Below, piece after piece: positions 7,415 through 54,305 of a stretch of 64,000 nucleotides of DNA; within the stretch, counting starts at the first letter, position 1; the number at the start of each line of letters is the position of its first letter. The stretch covers positions 1 to 64,000 of the forward strand of contig JAKLJG010000001.1 of the NCBI GenBank assembly GCA_023151255.1, given 5' to 3'. A model generated the notes under the pieces. That model was not told the DNA's origin. It made no database searches and saw nothing but the letters and a program-made list of their open reading frames with translations. Source of the DNA: Cyclobacteriaceae bacterium (lineage in GTDB: Bacteria > Bacteroidota > Bacteroidia > Cytophagales > Cyclobacteriaceae). A program made the position numbers and the translations under genes.

Positions 7415-9946
7415 TTACTCTTTCTTCGAAGCGGCCTTGGGCTTCTTTACCTTCAGCGTAAGAGAATCGGATTTGCCGTCATGGTCGGCCACGATGGTAC
7501 CGCCTTCTTCAATTTCGCCCTTCAGTATTTCCTCGGCCACCGGGTCTTCCAGGTATTTGGTAATGGCCCGGTTCAGCGGGCGTGCACCAAACTGGTGGTC
7601 ATATCCTTTTTCAGAAAGAAAATCTTTAGCCTTATCAGTTAATTCAACGGTGTAGCCCAGCGTGTTAATGCGGTCAAACACTTTCTTAAGGGTAATCTCA
7701 ATGATTTTGTGTATATGTTCGCGCTGCAGCGAGTTAAATACAATTACATCGTCAAGGCGATTCAGAAATTCGGGGCTGAATGCCCGCTTCAGGGCGTTCT
7801 GGATAGTTGACTTCATCAGCTCTTCTTCATTCTCGCGCTTAGACGAAGGGGCAAAGCCGATGCCTGTTCCGAAATCCTTCAGGTCGCGCACACCGATGTT
7901 GGAGGTCATGATGATGATGGTGTTGCGGAAATCCACCCGCCTGCCCAGGCCATCGGTAAGGATACCGTCATCCAGTACCTGCAGCAGAATGTTAAACACA
8001 TCGGGGTGTGCTTTTTCAATCTCGTCAAGCAACACCACCGAATACGGTTTGCGTCTTACTTTTTCGGTAAGCTGGCCGCCTTCTTCGTACCCAACATAAC
8101 CCGGAGGAGCACCCACCAGGCGTGATACAGAGAATTTTTCCATGTATTCGCTCATGTCAATACGGATGAGCGCATCTTCTTTATCGAATAAGTAGGTTGC
8201 CAGCACTTTGGCCAGTTCGGTTTTGCCTACGCCCGTAGGACCAAGGAAGATAAAGGAGCCTATGGGTTTGCGAGGGTCTTTTAAGCCCACCCGTGTGCGC
8301 TGGATGGCTTTGGTTAGTTTTTTTATGGCTTCTTCCTGCCCAATTACTTTGCCGCTAAGCTCCTCGGCCATACCCAGCAGTTTGTTGCTTTCTTTCTGGG
8401 CAATGCGGTTGGTGGGGATGCCCGTCATCATGGCAATCACATCGGCCACGTTGTCTTCGTTAACCGTATATTTTTCAGTGCGGGTTTTTTCTTCCCAGCG
8501 GGCTTTGGCTATCTCCAGTTGTTCGAGCAACTTCTTTTCTTTATCGCGCAGTTGGGCGGCTTCTTCGTACTTCTGGCTTTTCACTACGCGGTTTTTCTCT
8601 TTCTTCACATCCTCAATCGCTTCTTCCAGCTTCACGATTTCTTCCGGCACGTGAATGTTGTTGATGTGAACGCGCGCACCGGCCTCATCCATTACATCAA
8701 TGGCCTTGTCGGGCAGGAAGCGGTCGCTGATGTACCGGTCAGACAGTTTCACACAGGCTTCAATGGCCTCTTTGGTATAGCTAACGTGGTGGTGATCTTC
8801 GTACTTGTCTTTTATATTCTCCAAAATCTGCAGCGTTTCTTCCGGAGTGGTCGAATCCACCATCACCATCTGGAACCTGCGCGCCAGGGCACCGTCTTTC
8901 TCAATGTACTGGCGGTACTCATCCAGAGTGGTGGCGCCAATGCATTGAATCTCGCCACGGGCCAAAGCGGGTTTAAACATATTGGATGCATCGAGTGATC
9001 CGGATGCACCACCGGCACCAACAATGGTGTGCAGTTCATCAATAAACAGAATAACATCGGGCGATTTTTCCAGTTCGTTCATCACGGCTTTCATCCGTTC
9101 TTCAAACTGGCCGCGGTACTTGGTGCCGGCCACCAGCGAGGCCAGATCAAGTGTAACCACCCGTTTGCCAAACAATACGCGCGAAACTTTTTTCTGTACA
9201 ATGCGCAGGGCGAGGCCTTCGGCAATGGCGGTTTTACCAACGCCCGGCTCGCCTATTAATATCGGGTTGTTTTTCTTTCTGCGGCTCAGGATTTGCGCCA
9301 CGCGCTCAATTTCTTTTTCTCGGCCAACAATCGGATCGAGTTTGCCGTCTTCGGCCAGACGCGTCAGGTCGCGGCCAAAATTATCCAGCACGGGTGTGCG
9401 CGATTTTTCGGTGCCTTTCTTTTCCTTGCCTTGCGAGCCGGCTCCGCTACCGAAGATTCTTGATGATTCTTCATCCGGATCATCTGTATCAGATGCAGCC
9501 TGCGGGCCTTCGTGCTGGTATTCAAGCATTTCTTTTACGGTTTCATAATTCACATCAAACTTTTTGAGGATCTGTGTGGCCAGGTTGTCGGCATCGCGTA
9601 AAATGGAGAGCAACAAATGTTCTGTTCCGATAAGCTGGGCTTTAAATATCTTGGCTTCGAGGTAGGTGATCTTTAAAACTTTTTCGGAGGCCTTGGTAAG
9701 CGGTATGTTGGCCAGGTTTTTTACTTCGTGCGTGGCGGTGCCTTTCGAAACCTTTTCAATTTCACTGCGCAGGTCACTGAGTGGCACGCCCAGCTTTTTA
9801 AGCACACCTACGGCTACACCCTCGCCTTCGCGAATAAGCCCCAATAACAAATGTTCGGTGCCGATATAATCGTGCCCCAGGCGAAGCGCTTCTTCACGGC
9901 TAAGGCTTATTACTTCTTTAACGCGGTTCGAAAATTTTGCCTCCAT
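7415..9946 (-). CDS. clpC: ATP-dependent Clp protease ATP-binding subunit ClpC
   Basis: Two Clp_N repeats, two AAA modules ([30 protein letters not shown]), UVR-like middle domain ([18 protein letters not shown]). Confidence 0.95.
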
Positions 9947-46340: not shown

Positions 46341-46526
46341 ATGCTGAATTATTTCAAGTCTATCCTCACCAAGGTGAGTTTTGATGCCCGACTCTTTGAG
46401 AAGGAGTTGCGCAAGGCCCTGAAAGTTTTAATCCGCGAAGAAGTGCAGGAGCTCAAACAGTGGTGTTATGCCCGGTTTGGGAGTCAACACGAAGCCATTC
46501 TTAACCGATGCTTCGTGGCAGCGTGA
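46341..46526 (+). CDS. Small hypothetical protein (61 aa)
   Basis: MLNYFKSILTKVSFDARLFEKELRKALKVLIREEVQELKQWCYARFGSQHEAILNRCFVAA; followed by a strong terminator-like hairpin. Confidence 0.55.
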   Translation: MLNYFKSILTKVSFDARLFEKELRKALKVLIREEVQELKQWCYARFGSQHEAILNRCFVAA

Positions 46527-46870
46527 ATGGTATGTTTAACCCGGGTCCCGTTAAAAAGCGGGACCCTTTATTTTTATATAGTGTGAAGCGGATACCCCGT
46601 GAAGCTGTAATCTGGCTGGTGGCCTTACTGGCATTGGCGTTGACCGATCCACAGGCCGGAGGGCATTTCACACTTTGCCCGCTGGCCCAAGCCGGAGCCA
46701 CATTTTGCCCGGGTTGCGGACTGGGTCGTTCAATATCCTTATTTTTTCACGGTGATTTTGCTGAATCCTGGCGTATGCATCCGTTAGGAATTGTGACGGT
46801 AATTGTTTTATCTTATCGGATTATATCACTTTTCCAAAACGCATTTAAACCCCATGGCCAAAGTAACTGA
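46508..46870 (+). CDS. DUF2752 domain-containing protein
   Basis: FTLCPLAQAGATFCPGCGLGRSISLFFHGDFAESWRMHPLGI typical of DUF2752. True start probably downstream of the hairpin (e.g. GTG at 46583). Confidence 0.75.
   Translation: MLRGSVNGMFNPGPVKKRDPLFLYSVKRIPREAVIWLVALLALALTDPQAGGHFTLCPLAQAGATFCPGCGLGRSISLFFHGDFAESWRMHPLGIVTVIVLSYRIISLFQNAFKPHGQSN
46543..46575 (+). terminator. Intrinsic terminator after the 61-aa ORF
   Basis: GGGTCCCG-TTAAAAAG-CGGGACCC-TTTATTTTT: perfect 8-bp GC stem plus T-rich tail. Confidence 0.8.
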
Positions 46871-47195
46871 TGTATTACCCGAATTAGCCGGTGAAGAACT
46901 GGTATATGTTCAGAACCTGATGAAAGACTGGACAGACGATAAAGCCCGCAATTTTGCTAATGTGTACCGCACCCGCAGGCGCGACCCGCAAATGATTTTG
47001 ATTCTTACGATAATCGGATTTTTCGGTGTGGCCGGTATTCAACGGTTTATTACCGATCAGATAGGGATGGGGCTGCTTTACTTCTTTACTGCAGGGCTCT
47101 GCTTTATTGGTACAATCATCGATTTGGTAAACTATCAGAAACTAGCCTTTGAATACAATCAAAAGAAGGCCAACGAAGTGACTGCAATTATTTAG
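46854..47195 (+). CDS. TM2 domain-containing protein
   Basis: ILTIIGFFGVAGIQRFITDQIGMGLLYFFTAGLCFIGTIIDLVNY. ORF opens at 46803; ATG at 46854 preferred. Confidence 0.85.
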   Translation: MAKVTDVLPELAGEELVYVQNLMKDWTDDKARNFANVYRTRRRDPQMILILTIIGFFGVAGIQRFITDQIGMGLLYFFTAGLCFIGTIIDLVNYQKLAFEYNQKKANEVTAII

Positions 47196-47203
47196 CAAGT
47201 ACG

Positions 47204-48397
47204 TTACTGTTCAAAAAAGCAAACCGACCCGCCTACCCAGGTTTTGTTCTTGTTAAACTTAACCCCAATCATTTCGCCACGGCTTAACCGGGCCAGGTTG
47301 GTAACCGGTGTTGGCCGTGCTTTGCCCGGCCCCCAGATATACAGCATCCTGATTTCCGTTTTCACCAGGCCATCCGGTGCCTGAATCACCGGTTCATAGA
47401 CCACCTTGCGTTGTATCAGATAGTTTTTCCGTTCATGCTCAGGTATGCACTCTAAATCGGATTGCGTTACATGAAAGATGATGCCGCTTCCCGAAAAGGA
47501 AAACAGGGGCTTCAGTACATAATTTTCAAGGTCTTCAGGGAAAATTTTGTAGTCATTAAGAAAGCAGCATTCGGGAATGAACTCGCTTTTTATAAATGGC
47601 ATGGTGAATTTACTAATCCGGAAAAACCAGTTGGGGTGCCCGGCCCACTCCACATCAACTTCTTCGGTCAGGTTAAACTGCAAAGTCAAATCCTTGCGGG
47701 CAATCAGTTCATCGAATATAACGCGGTTATAAATTCGCTTTACCTGTATTTCGCGGCCGTTTTTTTTATAAAAAAGTTTTGCGCCTGAACGCCTCAGATT
47801 ACCGATGTGTACAGGTTCAATACCGGTTAGGTGTTTGGTAATAACAAAATCGATAGCAGTATTTTGTTGGAGCGGATCAATTTCAAGCAGAATTACTTCA
47901 TTCGGATCATGACCGTTCAGTAAAATGGATGTTAAAAACGATTGGTACTCTTTCCGGTTTAGCCCAAAATGCGATTGAACCGTATCGGGTACCGGAAAAT
48001 GCTTGCGGTATTGTTCCGAAAGAAAATCCTGCCAGCCGAATAGCGAAGGAAATCCCTGCATCTCAATCAGGCGGGGCTGTAACTGCCCGTCAGCATCTTT
48101 CACCAGGGCAAAGTCGAGCGCCAGAAAAAGCATGTGGTTGTCTTCATTTGGAACCTGAAGATTTTCCGGGATAGCGCGTTCAGTCAATTTTTTGAAGTCA
48201 GGCCTGACGATAAAATCAACAATACTTTCGGCTGCTTGCAGTAGTTTTTGTTTGAGGGCCCGGTCAACAAACACGGGGGTTTCGGCCACTCTGAATTTTA
48301 TCGGGAAATTAAAGTGCCTGTCGAGAGACTGAACAAAGGCGATGTACTTCTCTTCTGAGAAAAATTTGTTGTACTGTTCGCGCAGGGCTTTGATCAT
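47204..48397 (-). CDS. Predicted ATP-grasp-type enzyme of unknown substrate (amidoligase cluster)
   Basis: RLIEMQGFPSLFGWQ...FVLKPLFSFSGSGIIFHV...YLIQRKVVYEPVIQAPDGLVKTEIRMLYIW, resembling C-terminal ATP-grasp core motifs; start overlaps the stop of the next gene. Confidence 0.6.
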   Translation of the reverse strand: MIKALREQYNKFFSEEKYIAFVQSLDRHFNFPIKFRVAETPVFVDRALKQKLLQAAESIVDFIVRPDFKKLTERAIPENLQVPNEDNHMLFLALDFALVKDADGQLQPRLIEMQGFPSLFGWQDFLSEQYRKHFPVPDTVQSHFGLNRKEYQSFLTSILLNGHDPNEVILLEIDPLQQNTAIDFVITKHLTGIEPVHIGNLRRSGAKLFYKKNGREIQVKRIYNRVIFDELIARKDLTLQFNLTEEVDVEWAGHPNWFFRISKFTMPFIKSEFIPECCFLNDYKIFPEDLENYVLKPLFSFSGSGIIFHVTQSDLECIPEHERKNYLIQRKVVYEPVIQAPDGLVKTEIRMLYIWGPGKARPTPVTNLARLSRGEMIGVKFNKNKTWVGGSVCFFEQ

Positions 48398-49215
48398 AAC
48401 ACCGTTAGTCGGGTTGCGGCTGCCTGGCGAAGAAAGGTGGGAATAATGGTTTTGTAAGTTCGTTTGATCTTATCCGGATCGTTGAGGTACTTCAGCATTT
48501 CCACGTATTTCTTTTCACCGTGCCGTTCAATGATCCCTTTTTTCTTGTCTTCGCGCAGCAGGTACTTAAACATGCCGTCATAGTCGGCCTCGGGATGAAA
48601 CTGCATACCCACGATGGCATCGTCAAACCGGATGCCCATCACGGCCCGTTCCAAATCAACATGAGGTCGTTCTTTTTCAATGCACAGTACGTGTGCACCG
48701 GTGGCCAGCATGCGGGGGCTGGGTTCGGTTACCTGGTAAAAGCGCGAATCTACGGCATAAAAGGGGTCGTCCAGGTTTTTAAATAGCGGTTCATGGCGGG
48801 CCTCTTTAGTTTTATGGATGGGAAATATGCCAAACGCTTCGCTGCGTCTTTTGCTTACCTTACCATATTTATAATGCCTACAGTAAATCTGGAAAGAGTG
48901 GCAGATGAGAAAAACAAACTTCTTTTGTTGCGGGTGCTGGCGGTTGTGTTCCCGGATAGTATCCATCAGCCTGAAATAATTGGCTTCCCATTCGGAGCCT
49001 TCGCTGGCCAGCGGGCTGCCCGGCCCGCCCGAGGAAATGTAGATATCGTAATCGGGTGAAGCGATTTGATTTTTTAGGCGCACATCAAATACCTCGTACT
49101 CCACCGGAAATGATGATTCGGCCTTAAATTGTTCGACCAACTGCACAATGCAGCGCATTCCTTCGTTTTCTTCACCCTCGTATAAATCCAGTATGGCAAT
49201 GCGGATGGCATTCAT
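48394..49215 (-). CDS. Type 1 (class I) glutamine amidotransferase
   Basis: DIYISSGGPGSP, nucleophile region FVFLICHSFQIYCRHYKYG, and GMQFHPEADYDG (His-x-Glu); 4-bp overlaps with both neighbours. Confidence 0.85.
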   Translation of the reverse strand: MNAIRIAILDLYEGEENEGMRCIVQLVEQFKAESSFPVEYEVFDVRLKNQIASPDYDIYISSGGPGSPLASEGSEWEANYFRLMDTIREHNRQHPQQKKFVFLICHSFQIYCRHYKYGKVSKRRSEAFGIFPIHKTKEARHEPLFKNLDDPFYAVDSRFYQVTEPSPRMLATGAHVLCIEKERPHVDLERAVMGIRFDDAIVGMQFHPEADYDGMFKYLLREDKKKGIIERHGEKKYVEMLKYLNDPDKIKRTYKTIIPTFLRQAAATRLTVL

Positions 49216-50309
49216 AATCCTGCTATGGTTTGTTCGGTAATATAATCAACAACTTTTTCCAGGCTGTCGGTTTGCTTAAACACGGCTAACTGTCGGTCGG
49301 CTCCGGTGCCTTGTTTCAGCATGGTGTAAACATAATTAATTGCTTGCCGGCTTCCCAGTTCATCCACTACGTCATCAACAAATTCAAGCAGCTCATTAAT
49401 CAATGCACGGGTTTCTACTTCCTCCTGCTTGCCGAAGTCAATCAGTTTGCCATCAATGCCATAGCGACTTGCCCGCCACTTGTTTTCGTTAATAAGTGCG
49501 CGGTTGTACACAATAAAACTCATGTTTTGCTTGCGCAGTTTATACAATTTTACCACCAGCGCCTGAAACAAGGCCGTTATGGCCATGGTTTCTTCCACTC
49601 GCATGGGTACATCGCAGATGCGGAATTCGATGGTATCGAAGAAGGGATGTACGCGTATATCCCACCAGATTTTCTTGGCGTTGTCGATGCAGCCGGTTTT
49701 GATAAGCAGGTTTACATAGTTTTTGAAGTCGTCCCAATCATTGAAATAATCAGGTAAACCGGTGCGCGGAAACTTATCGAACACTTTGGTACGGAAGGAT
49801 TTGAAGCCGGTGTTGCGGCCCTCCCAAAACGGGCTGTTGCAGGAAAGCGCATACACGTGCGGCAGAAAGTAGCGGATAGTATTCACAATGTGAATGGCCA
49901 TGTTTTTATCGGAAATGCCCACGTGCACATGTAAACCGAAGATGAGGTTTGAACGGGCGGCCTCCTGCATTTCATTAACAATCTCATCGTAGCGCGGGTT
50001 GGGCGTAATCAGTTGTTTTGACCAGTGGGAGAAGGGGTGTGTACCGGATGCGCCAATGCGCAGGTTCATGGAGCGGGCAATGTCGCTAACCAGTTTGCGC
50101 AGTTTGCTGATGTCGCTGCGGGCTTCTTCAATGTTGCGGCAAATGCCGGTGCCAACCTCAACTACGGCCTGGTGCATTTCGGCTTTTACATGGTCTTTCA
50201 ATACCTGTTGTGCCGCCTCAACAATCTTCTGGTCGTGCGAGGTGAGTTCCCGGCTCACCGGGTCAATCACCATGTACTCTTCTTCAACGCCTAATGTAAA
50301 TTTTTCCAT
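49212..50309 (-). CDS. Carboxylate-amine ligase, YbdK/GCS2 family
   Basis: FTLGVEEEYMVIDPVSRELTSHDQKIVE...GASGTHPFSHW...FGLHVHVGISDKNMAIHIVN...EFRICDVPMRVEETMAITAL. Confidence 0.9.
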   Translation of the reverse strand: MEKFTLGVEEEYMVIDPVSRELTSHDQKIVEAAQQVLKDHVKAEMHQAVVEVGTGICRNIEEARSDISKLRKLVSDIARSMNLRIGASGTHPFSHWSKQLITPNPRYDEIVNEMQEAARSNLIFGLHVHVGISDKNMAIHIVNTIRYFLPHVYALSCNSPFWEGRNTGFKSFRTKVFDKFPRTGLPDYFNDWDDFKNYVNLLIKTGCIDNAKKIWWDIRVHPFFDTIEFRICDVPMRVEETMAITALFQALVVKLYKLRKQNMSFIVYNRALINENKWRASRYGIDGKLIDFGKQEEVETRALINELLEFVDDVVDELGSRQAINYVYTMLKQGTGADRQLAVFKQTDSLEKVVDYITEQTIAGL

Positions 50310-50350
50310 AGCTTCACCCCCTACCCCTCTCCAGCGAAGAGGGAGAAACG

Positions 50351-51340
50351 TTATTTAGATTTTGCTTTTGACGTAGTCCTGGAATTTCTTTTAAGAAAAG
50401 TTGCCACTGAGTCGGAAACAAATGTTCCCCAGGTCAGGTTGTCTGAATTCGGTTTTTGTTGTTGCGCCCGTTCGATGGCCATTTTCGCGGCATGTTCAAC
50501 CACCCATTCAAAATTTTCCTGGCCAACGGAATTGACATCGGCATCGGGAGCAGGGTTGCAAAAATCGATGGCATACGGAATGCCTCCGCGCACGGCCATT
50601 TCTACCGTATTGAAATCATAGCCAAGTGCCTGGTTGAGTTGTAGTACATAGTCGCGTACTTTTTTAACCAACTTTTCCGAGGCTGGGCCGCTGGTTACCA
50701 CGTACCGCAAATGATGGGGGTTGCGCGGCTCGTATTGCATTACACGAACATAGTTGCGCCCAAGGCAGTAGCAGCGGAAGTATTCTTCGAAAATAATTTC
50801 TTCCTGCAGCATCATTACGAGTTGGCCGGTTTCTTTGTAGGCTCTGAAAAAATCGTCCATGTTGTTGAGTTTGTACACGCTCTTCCAACCGCCACCGGCA
50901 TGGGGCTTCATGTAAGCCGGCCAGCCGATGTATTCAAAGATCTTTTCCCACGACAGTGGAAAATTCAGGTTGCTGAACGATGAATCGGTAGTGTCGGTTG
51001 GTTTATCGTGCGAGGGAAGGATAACCGTTTTCGGTACAGGTACCCCGATTTTCACAGCCAGCGCGTTGTTAAAAAATTTTTCATCGGCACTCCACCAAAA
51101 CGGGTTGTTGATTACGGCTGTTCCGGAAATGGCGGCATTTTTTAGGTAGGCCCGGTAAAAAGGAACATCCTGCGAAATCCGGTCGATAATCACGGCATAA
51201 TCGGTCGGTTCGCCTTGTTGAACTTTGTCGATCAATACCGGTTCGGCCTTAATGTCTTTCAGGCCGGCTTTATTAACACGCTCAATAAAAGCTTCAGGGA
51301 AAGAGCGCTCCATGCCAAACAGAATTCCAATTTTTTTCAT
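50351..51340 (-). CDS. ATP-grasp (RimK-like) ligase
   Basis: MKKIGILFGMERSFPEAFIERVN...WPAYMKPHAGGGWKSVYKLNNM...VMMLQEEIIFEEYFRCYCLG...YAIDFCNPAPDADVNS. ORF opens at 51487 but MKKIGIL is the natural start. Confidence 0.8.
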   Translation of the reverse strand: MKKIGILFGMERSFPEAFIERVNKAGLKDIKAEPVLIDKVQQGEPTDYAVIIDRISQDVPFYRAYLKNAAISGTAVINNPFWWSADEKFFNNALAVKIGVPVPKTVILPSHDKPTDTTDSSFSNLNFPLSWEKIFEYIGWPAYMKPHAGGGWKSVYKLNNMDDFFRAYKETGQLVMMLQEEIIFEEYFRCYCLGRNYVRVMQYEPRNPHHLRYVVTSGPASEKLVKKVRDYVLQLNQALGYDFNTVEMAVRGGIPYAIDFCNPAPDADVNSVGQENFEWVVEHAAKMAIERAQQQKPNSDNLTWGTFVSDSVATFLKRNSRTTSKAKSK

Positions 51341-51345
51341 AGTTG

Positions 51346-52056
51346 TTATTTTATCAGTGAGAGGTAATGCGGAAACATTTCGCGCCACGCGGGCCAATCG
51401 TGCGGGCGTTCGGGGCGTACATCCAACCAGTGGCTGATACCTTTGTTTTTCAGGATGACCGCCATTTTTTCGTTGGCTTCCCAGCACATATCGTGAGTGC
51501 CGGTACCAAGCACCACAAACATGTCATTGAAAAACGGGTTTTGGGCACCGGGCAGAAAATCGGGTGGGTTATTAAAGTACACGTTGTCATCGTAATAGCC
51601 GTCAAGCTGGCTTTTGATGTCAAATGCTGCGCCCATATTGAGAACATACTTCACTACTTCGGGGTGGCGAAATGCAAAATTGGTGGCGTGGTATCCGCCA
51701 AAACTGCAGCCGGCAGTGGCAATGCGGTGCACACCGGTTTCCCGCTGCATAAGCGGCACCAGTTCGTGCAATAAAAACTGGTCGTACCAGATGTGATTCT
51801 TTACCCGGTCGGCCGGATGAATGTTTTTGTTGTACCAGCTCATTGAGTCAATTCCATCCGGGCAATAAATTTTTACCAGGCCTTCATCCAGGAACCACGC
51901 CACACTATCAATCAGCTTAAAATCTTTGTTTTCGTAATAGCTGCCCATGGACGTAGGGAAAAGCATAACCGGGTATCCGCGTGTGCCAAACGCCAGGGTG
52001 CCGATCTCGCGCCCAAGGTTGGGGCTGTACCATTTATGAAAATGCTCGTGGGGCAT
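51346..52056 (-). CDS. Esterase / alpha-beta hydrolase (PF00756-like)
   Basis: Nucleophile elbow GCSFGGYHATNFAFRHPE; LGTGTHD; terminal HDWPAWREMFPHYL His. Confidence 0.85.
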   Translation of the reverse strand: MPHEHFHKWYSPNLGREIGTLAFGTRGYPVMLFPTSMGSYYENKDFKLIDSVAWFLDEGLVKIYCPDGIDSMSWYNKNIHPADRVKNHIWYDQFLLHELVPLMQRETGVHRIATAGCSFGGYHATNFAFRHPEVVKYVLNMGAAFDIKSQLDGYYDDNVYFNNPPDFLPGAQNPFFNDMFVVLGTGTHDMCWEANEKMAVILKNKGISHWLDVRPERPHDWPAWREMFPHYLSLIK

Positions 52057-52132
52057 GGCAGCGGCTGTGGAGGGTTTTGGTAAAATTTTATTTTTGCTGC
52101 CTTAAAATAAGCAATTCAACTCAATATCGGTT

Positions 52133-52945
52133 TTGGATACCCCGCAATTGTACCATCTTGAACAGTTAACTGATGTCCATTCTAAGTTACTGGGGCGCGA
52201 TACGATTGTGGATATTTATCTTCCACAAGCGTTTGAAAAGGCAGATAATCCATATCCTTTGCTGATTCTCAATGACGGCCAGGATGGTAAAGCCATTGAA
52301 TTGAAGGAGCGCCTTGAAGAATTGAGCAAGTCGCAGGCTATTCGCAATGTAATCGTGGTGGCTGTGCATGCCGGAGATCGCCTGCAGGAATACGGAGTTG
52401 CTTCACGAAAAGATTATAAAGGCCGCGGGTCTAAAGCTAAAGACTATACGCGGTTTATCATGACCGAACTGGTACCCTATATTCACTACCGGTATCCTGT
52501 TTCGGAAAATAAGACCGATCACGTGATTGCCGGATTTTCGATGGGTGGTCTTTCGGCTGTTGATATAGCATGGAATAATGCCGATTATTTTGGAAAAGCC
52601 GGGGCGTTTAGCGGATCGTTCTGGTGGCGTAAGCGCGATGCTAAAAGTATTCTCTACAGTGATAAGCGTGATCGACTGATGCATTTGCAGATTCGAAATG
52701 GAAAGTTCAAGCCGGGATTAAAGTTCTGGTTTCAAACGGGCACACAGGATGAGCTGAGTGACCGCAACGAGAACGGAACCATTGATTCTATTGACGATAC
52801 GCTTGATCTAATTGCTGAACTGACAAAAAAGGGTTACCGGCCTTTTCAGGATATTCAGTATTACGAAATTGAAGGGGGCAAACATAACCTCGAAACCTGG
52901 AAGCAGGCGTTACCTGCGTTTTTGAAGTGGGCGTTTGGAAGTTAA
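52133..52945 (+). CDS. Esterase / alpha-beta hydrolase (PF00756-like), divergent from the amidoligase operon
   Basis: LILNDGQDGKAIELKERLEEL, nucleophile elbow AGFSMGGLSAVDIAW, GTQDE, GGKHNLETWKQALPAFLKW. Confidence 0.85.
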   Translation: MDTPQLYHLEQLTDVHSKLLGRDTIVDIYLPQAFEKADNPYPLLILNDGQDGKAIELKERLEELSKSQAIRNVIVVAVHAGDRLQEYGVASRKDYKGRGSKAKDYTRFIMTELVPYIHYRYPVSENKTDHVIAGFSMGGLSAVDIAWNNADYFGKAGAFSGSFWWRKRDAKSILYSDKRDRLMHLQIRNGKFKPGLKFWFQTGTQDELSDRNENGTIDSIDDTLDLIAELTKKGYRPFQDIQYYEIEGGKHNLETWKQALPAFLKWAFGS

Positions 52946-52949
52946 TGGG

Positions 52950-54305
52950 TTAATGTGCCGATGTGGAAACGAATTGGATGTTACGTTTTAAGCCTTTGAA
53001 ACCTGTTCGTTTAACGGCTGATTTTTTAAACAACTTTTGAAATACTTCTTCGGTTAGCTCCAGCCAATCGGAGTTATTCATTCCGGCTGTTTGTGGATGC
53101 GGATTGAAGCGCGGCTCGTGGTGTGGCTGTGCAAAGCGGTTCCAGGGGCATACCTCCTGGCAGATATCGCACCCGAAAATCCAGTTTTCGAATTTACCTT
53201 TTACCTCAGCCGGTATTTCCTCCCTTAGTTCAATTGTAAAATATGAAATGCATTTGCTGCCATCCACCACATAGGGTTGAGGAATAGCCTCTGTGGGGCA
53301 GGCATCCATGCAGGCCGTGCAGGTGCCACAGTAATCTTTTATTGGGCCATCGTATTCCAGTTCAAGATCAACAATCAGTTCGGCCAGGAAAAAGAAACTG
53401 CCCATAGACCGGTTTAGCAGCAATGAATTTTTTCCAATCCACCCGATGCCCGAACGCTTTGCCCAGGCCCGCTCCAGCACCGGAGCTGAGTCAACAAAGG
53501 CGCGACCGTTTATATCGCCCAACTTTTCGCGCAGCCGTAACATGAACTCCTTCAGCTTGTCTTTAATCACGAAGTGATAATCTTCGCCATAGGCGTACCG
53601 GGTAATTTTCAGGTTGTGCCTATCCGTTAGATCTTTTGCAGGAAAGTAATTGTAGATAAGACTGATCACGGATTTTGCCCCGGGAATCAATTTGGTAGGG
53701 TCGAGGCGCTTTTCAAAGTGGTTGGCCATGTAAGCCATTTTGCCGTGGTAGTTGCGCTTCAGCCACTCTTCGAGTTTGGGCGCTTCGTCTTCAAGGAATT
53801 CGGCTTTGGAAATACCGCAATAACTGAAGCCGAGTTGGGTGGCGGTGTGTTTGATGAAGGTTGTACGGGAAGACACCCCCCTTTGTCCCCCCTCAAGGGG
53901 GGAAATAGTACCGCCCCCTTTGAGGGGGGCAGGGGGGGCGTTTAACTTTATCCAATCTGCAATTTTTGATACAACCATTTCAGTTCGGTTGCGAACTTCG
54001 CGGTCATCAAACCGCAGAAACCGGACACCGGTTGTTTCAAGTTTTTGCTGCCGTTTTCGATCGCTGCTTTTGGCTTCTTTTGTTAAATGACTTTCGCCAT
54101 CAATTTCAATAGCCAGCATAAGTTCATGGCAATAGAAATCCACGATATAATCTAACAAGGGTACTTGCCGGTGAAACTGGTAACCAGCGAGTTTTCTCCT
54201 TCTGATTTCATTCCATAATATAACTTCTGATGCTGTTGCAAACTTTCGCAATTCACGCGCCTGGTTGCGCAGATCTTTACGGTATGAAATCAGTTTGTTT
54301 CGCAT
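52950..54305 (-). CDS. queG: Fusion ORF: N-terminal DUF559 endonuclease-like domain + epoxyqueuosine reductase QueG
   Basis: N-term: [55 protein letters not shown] (DUF559). C-term: [62 protein letters not shown] (QueG). Possible QueG-only GTG start at 53876. Confidence 0.88.
53874..53940. repeat. G/C-rich palindromic mini-repeat inside the DUF559-QueG ORF
   Basis: CACCCCCCTTTGTCCCCCCTCAAGGGGGGAAATAGTACCGCCCCCTTTGAGGGGGGCAGGGGGGGCG: nested CCCCCC..GGGGGG palindromes, translated as [23 protein letters not shown]. Confidence 0.85.

Follow-up and report, generated by a model that had tools for sequence, protein, structure and literature searches.

Which product may be made, and recycled, by six adjoining genes of a Cyclobacteriaceae bacterium in which three predicted amide-bond-forming ligases stand beside a protein of the class-I glutamine amidotransferase (GATase) fold and two putative esterases? 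The genes, designated est1, atgA, GCS2, GATase, atgB and est2, lie at positions 47204–52945 of a 64,000-nucleotide stretch of contig JAKLJG010000001.1 (assembly GCA_023151255.1, 3.17 Mb), the whole of which is called the window below. We lean towards reading them as one self-contained pathway that would build and turn over a putative small γ-glutamyl peptide or peptide-amine by a glutathione-like logic. This reading draws on which genes are present and in what order, on their co-occurrence and all-or-none inheritance, on the conservation of catalytic residues, and on the predicted folds of AtgB and GATase.

Results and Discussion

Co-Occurrence, Order and Inheritance of the Cassette

For the co-occurrence analysis 297 Bacteroidota genomes were each searched with five of the proteins, and weak GCS2 matches (≤41% identity) as well as weak atgA matches were excluded from the counts. 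GCS2 and atgB were found together in 87 genomes, one without the other in 6 and 5, and neither in 199 (Fisher p = 6e-61); the corresponding values were p = 9e-56 for atgA/GCS2 and p = 1e-54 for atgA/atgB, none of the three being corrected for relatedness among the genomes. Among the genomes sharing a pair, the two genes were unlinked in 37 (GCS2/atgB), 34 (atgA/GCS2) and 40 (atgA/atgB), and the association is therefore not only a neighbourhood effect. All three ligases were present in 84 genomes, of which 50 have the GATase and 34 lack it.

Gene order was analysed at 136 loci with atgA, of which 55 have the five core genes together on the same strand. The order est1-atgA-GCS2-GATase-atgB was identical in all 55, with est2 diverging upstream in 39. 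Named carriers of atgA are Runella, Dyadobacter, Arcicella, Mucilaginibacter, Pedobacter, Sediminibacterium, Cryomorpha, Portibacter and Algoriphagus. An exact −4 overlap was observed in 23 of 70 GATase/atgB pairs and in 6 of 64 GCS2/GATase pairs; such an overlap is by itself frequent in bacterial operons, and taken alone it is weak evidence for one unit. Clustering of the neighbourhoods gave no family beyond the six of the cassette in more than 16 loci.

Within the genus, atgA was found in 10 of 17 genomes, that of the window included. Seven of the 17 show an empty site between the queG and BatD neighbours, with at most a TM2/DUF2752 gene pair in between. Neither atgA nor a GCS2 of the cassette type was found elsewhere in these seven genomes, where only two gave weak paralogue matches for GCS2. 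A tree built from four flanking genes placed the empty genomes in three groups among the filled ones, and the simplest reading is that the whole block was lost repeatedly. Loss of the whole block at one site puts est2, which is gone with the other five genes at all seven empty sites, inside the unit, as the first-pass annotation had supposed, and TM2/DUF2752 outside it. The latter pair (window 46508–47195), considered as a further part of the cassette, was discarded, being retained at three empty sites and missing from one filled site. The proposal of the same annotation that the genes form one pathway, for which it had suggested neighbourhood conservation across Bacteroidota as a check, is strengthened by the invariant order, by the co-occurrence of ligases even when unlinked and by the all-or-none presence of the block in the genus.

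Other arrangements of these genes also occur. An M17 aminopeptidase and a third ATP-grasp protein are located near the cassette in several loci, and the aminopeptidase was counted in favour of the proposed pathway. In a sister arrangement (four loci, Table 1), GCS2 is replaced by a circularly permuted ATP-grasp protein of about 450–480 amino acid residues (aa), with est1, atgA and GATase on its flanks; no est1 homologue was detected in the sister arrangement of locus L055. In nine of the sampled genomes atgA and GATase occur while both GCS2 and atgB are missing; a further six have a more distant GCS2 elsewhere.

GCS2, AtgA and the Esterases

GCS2 matched PF04107 (E = 1e-63, 215.8 bits against a cut-off of 21) and passed the curated NCBIfam model NF010039 (552.5 bits against 371). 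The GhExE motif, given as a Mg/ATP signature in the available text of PMC2588565, reads G7-V8-E9-E10-E11 in the window protein, and G7, E9, E10 and E11 are conserved in at least 95% of 110 homologs. A second GCS2 paralogue, distantly related and 411 aa long, is encoded in the same genome (G000:C11:429138-429929; L002:1462-2697; PF04107, 85.9 bits); a 278-aa open reading frame (ORF) lies before it in the same orientation. Weak second GCS2 matches were likewise seen in several other Bacteroidota genomes.

AtgA gave sub-threshold NCBIfam matches to TIGR02144 (E = 8.8e-7) and TIGR00768 (E = 3.7e-6), failing the RimK/LysX cut-offs (28.3 against 275.6 bits and 26.5 against 143.4 bits), and residues K145, E247, D259 and N262 were invariant. 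By sequence it appears only distantly RimK/LysX-like. Its placement in the R2K ATP-grasp clade was not adopted, the single weak match having come from an atgA homolog (E = 0.017).

In the esterases, as in GCS2 and AtgA, the residues expected to be catalytic are conserved, S118, D189 and H219 of Est1 in at least 95% of 90 homologs, and S136, D206 and H251 in Est2. The family assignments of the first-pass annotation thus stood for GCS2, for GATase (PF00117) and for both esterases (PF00756); AtgA reached its families only below threshold and AtgB matched none. Its count of three amide ligases is supported, that of AtgB by structure.

Predicted Fold of AtgB

No match for the window AtgB was found in Pfam or NCBIfam, and its homolog in locus L103 matched GSP_synth at E = 0.0018, below the cut-off, so that the protein fails the curated sequence models for the glutathione synthetase/GspS/YgiC group. 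The sole PDB profile match by sequence was YgiC, a weak one (E = 0.027). An AlphaFold2 (AF2) model built from 55 sequences (predicted local distance difference test score, pLDDT, 93.8; predicted template modelling score, pTM, 0.91) had 15 PDB matches at E < 1e-3, all in one group, the best at E = 9.1e-14. The matched structures were yeast, human and nematode glutathione synthetases or glutathione-synthetase-like proteins, a putative glutathionylspermidine synthase, GspSA, YgiC, YjfC and the ligase Cp1B. On its predicted structure AtgB is a member of the glutathione synthetase/peptide-polyamine ligase group, an assignment beyond what could be seen in the first pass. According to PMC12568646, YgiC and YjfC are peptidylpolyamine synthetases and Cp1B is a ligase that forms pseudodipeptides.

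Probable Role of the GATase and Its Apparent Replacement by an M29 Peptidase

The GATase matched PF00117 (33.1 bits against a cut-off of 22.8), its C105, H207 and E209 triad was invariant in 42 sequences, and the nucleophile motif of the window protein is C-H-S-F-Q. The top four PDB matches of an AF2 model built from 42 sequences (pLDDT 93.7) were chains of Arabidopsis GGP1 (E = 1.7e-13; TM-score 0.71 by query length), an enzyme which removes γ-Glu from glutathione conjugates (PMC6243137).

In loci L072, L096, L099 and L110 the place between GCS2 and atgB is taken by a gene for a protein of 339–342 aa which is not a GATase; two of these four proteins were scanned with Pfam and both were M29 peptidases. 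The M29 homolog of L099 is encoded at 8285-9301. Close M29 homologs (at least 59% identity) occur in six of the 297 genomes, all six with the three ligases and without GATase (p = 0.003 among the 84), and the gene adjoins GCS2 in five of them and lies on another contig in the sixth (G242). The M29 peptidase thus seems to replace the GATase in six genomes, and a hydrolase at this position is easier to reconcile with a GATase that acts by hydrolysis than with one that donates ammonia.

The GATase could also be an ordinary glutaminase feeding ammonia to AtgA or AtgB, with an amidated peptide as the product, as the PF00117 membership and the intact C-H-E triad would allow; its ATGA overlaps with GCS2 and atgB would fit subunits of one complex. 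We consider this unlikely. The lack of the GATase in 34 of the 84 three-ligase genomes argues against an obligate ammonia partner, although free ammonia could substitute; the M29 peptidase that stands in for it in several loci is unable to draw ammonia from glutamine; and the nearest fold is that of a hydrolase. For the same reasons the GATase is probably a γ-glutamyl hydrolase rather than an ammonia donor. The first-pass annotation had offered both ammonia supply and cleavage of a γ-glutamyl intermediate as its role, and it is the second that is now favoured and the first disfavoured.

Proposed Pathway and Alternatives

In the proposed pathway, GCS2 would, by its family chemistry, activate the γ-carboxylate of glutamate and join it to the amino group of a compound X, giving γ-Glu-X. 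AtgB, to judge by its fold, would then activate the free carboxylate of γ-Glu-X and add an amine Y, either an amino acid or a polyamine, and AtgA may form a further or alternative amide bond, with no set place in the order. The GATase would strip the γ-glutamyl group in the manner of GGP1, for maturation or recycling, its place being taken by the M29 peptidase in some lineages. The two esterases might take off an ester or thioester group, the least certain of the steps. A bolder form of the proposal, possible but tentative, is that Bacteroidota carry an undescribed glutathione-like or glutathionylspermidine-like metabolite (γ-Glu-X-Y) for which the cassette would be dedicated, with its synthetic ligases and GGP1-type peptidase.

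Several findings weigh against this pathway. AtgB shares only 10–15% identity with the structures that it matched, and its TM-scores by its own length are 0.5–0.63. GGP1 outscores other GATase-fold proteins only narrowly, and no match to it was obtained up to E = 10 in the profile search with the GATase. Of the 34 three-ligase genomes without the GATase, just six have the M29 peptidase, and the esterase step is taken from family membership only. Bacillithiol synthase BshC, expected in many Bacteroidota (PMC6282198), is encoded in the same genome, so that there is no evident need for a thiol role. The idea that the cassette product is the main cellular thiol is weakened by this, and the product is probably not the main thiol of this genome. 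As a pointer to a polyamine substrate, co-occurrence with carboxynorspermidine decarboxylase was uninformative (5 of 148 genomes above the family cut-off).

The Puu polyamine pathway comprises the γ-glutamyl ligase PuuA and the hydrolase PuuD, the latter of class-I GATase fold. A Puu-like handling of amines or xenobiotics, in which GCS2 would add γ-Glu, later enzymes would modify the conjugate and the GATase would remove the group again, resembles the cassette in this addition and subsequent removal by a class-I GATase-fold hydrolase. A hydrolase-like GATase beside a γ-glutamyl ligase and the patchy presence within the genus, which suits an accessory function, agree with it. The ligase, however, is of a different family, no oxidative enzymes were seen at the cassette, and the recurring neighbours include no oxidase, dehydrogenase or transporter; moreover, the constant company of two additional ATP-grasp amide ligases argues for assembly rather than breakdown, and we regard this explanation as improbable.

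Still less probable is that the ligases add amino acids to proteins as a peptide tag or modification, which the GATase, the peptidase and the esterases would reverse or edit. RimK-type ligases and the GCS2-related Pup ligase do modify proteins, according to the available text of PMC2588565, and AtgA has a RimK/LysX-like score; however, no gene for a small conserved tag protein recurs in the neighbour clusters (ORFs of at least 90 aa clustered), and AtgB groups with small-molecule ligases. A service to cyanophycin or another nitrogen-storage polymer is very improbable. In its favour, the cassette lies beside cyanophycin synthetase in L103 (10785-15465, with a peptidase S51 and Asparaginase_2 also downstream) and L090 (12684-15314); against it, both loci are of one genus, and no such gene was found among the neighbours in the other loci examined. 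Neighbours of 870–874 aa in L092, L097 and L105 were rejected as candidate cyanophycin synthetases, their start by eye resembling mismatch-repair MutS.

Relation to Known Systems

The cassette was compared with described systems. It resembles the plant form of glutathione biosynthesis with GGP1 turnover in that a GCS2-superfamily ligase, a ligase of predicted eukaryotic glutathione synthetase fold and a GGP1-fold GATase occur together, and differs from it in its arrangement as a single operon, with two esterases and a third ligase besides. The proposed pathway is glutathione-like in logic; by membership it does not count as glutathione biosynthesis, since AtgB fails the curated models, AtgA fails the RimK/LysX cut-offs and BshC is present.

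AtgB shares its predicted fold with the E. coli peptide-spermidine ligases YgiC and YjfC and with GspSA, whereas it reaches only E = 0.027 by sequence and 14–15% identity by structure, and has no amidase domain. In the available text of a 2008 study, a proteobacterial carboxylate-amine ligase family adjoins a GATase-like thiol peptidase and peptide formation is proposed (PMC2588565). That pair likewise joins a GS-fold ligase to a GATase-like hydrolase; its ligase is of another family, and that text mentions neither an ATP-grasp pair nor esterases.

In the open literature no paper describing the cassette was found, though the 2009 amidoligase survey, which lay outside that search, may list the neighbourhood, and no described product was found for it. 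Results of the present analysis are the assignment of the folds, the apparent replacement of the GATase by M29 and the comparison of empty with filled sites.

Layout of the Locus

All six ORFs, five on the minus strand and one diverging, were confirmed in the window at the coordinates first given, as were the two four-base-pair ATGA overlaps (Table 1); the intergenic region shared by est1 and est2, put at about 75 bp in the first pass, is 76 bp long, and promoter scans of this region gave no match above chance. The mechanically called atgA ORF has a GTG start at 51487, inside est1, which would make the two genes overlap, and the ATG at 51340 is the start conserved in the homologs.

The gap between atgA and GCS2 (window 50310–50350) contains a C-rich stretch, CACCCCCTACCCCTCTCCAGCGAAGAGGGAGAAAC, which may be a dispersed repeat element. 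The neighbouring queG frame (window 52950–54305) codes for 451 aa, with an extra N-terminal part attached through a low-complexity linker, and in several genomes of the genus only about 300–330 residues match the window copy.

Table 1. Features of the cassette in the window, and loci of the sister arrangement.
Feature	Position	Strand	Basis
est1, α/β-hydrolase, putative esterase, 236 aa, first gene of the operon	51346-52056	-	PF00756, E = 3.9e-7
atgA, RimK/LysX-like ATP-grasp ligase, 329 aa, ATG start	50351-51340	-	sub-threshold NCBIfam; invariant residues
GCS2, YbdK-family carboxylate-amine (γ-glutamyl) ligase, 365 aa	49212-50309	-	PF04107, NF010039
GATase, class-I glutamine amidotransferase fold, probable γ-glutamyl peptidase, 273 aa	48394-49215	-	PF00117; model
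atgB, ATP-grasp, eukaryotic glutathione synthetase/GspS/YgiC structural group, 397 aa	47204-48397	-	AF2 model
est2, divergent putative esterase, 270 aa, TTG start	52133-52945	+	PF00756, E = 1.7e-33; lost together with the other five
ATGA overlap, GCS2 stop/GATase start	49212-49215	-	sequence
ATGA overlap, GATase stop/atgB start	48394-48397	-	sequence
Divergent est1/est2 intergenic region, 76 bp, presumed promoter region	52057-52132	.	sequence
Sister arrangement	L053:4986-8950		
Sister arrangement	L055:5659-9063		
Sister arrangement	L060:5235-9328		
Sister arrangement	L061:5089-8963		

Conclusions

The three ligases are present in more than one quarter of the Bacteroidota genomes sampled (84 of 297), and one of them, AtgB, escapes both Pfam and NCBIfam. 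If the proposed pathway is true, many environmental bacteria would make an unrecognised γ-glutamyl metabolite alongside bacillithiol. The cassette is compact, it is carried by Pedobacter, Mucilaginibacter, Runella, Dyadobacter and Algoriphagus, and close relatives naturally lack it, so that a single metabolomic comparison could be enough to reveal its product.

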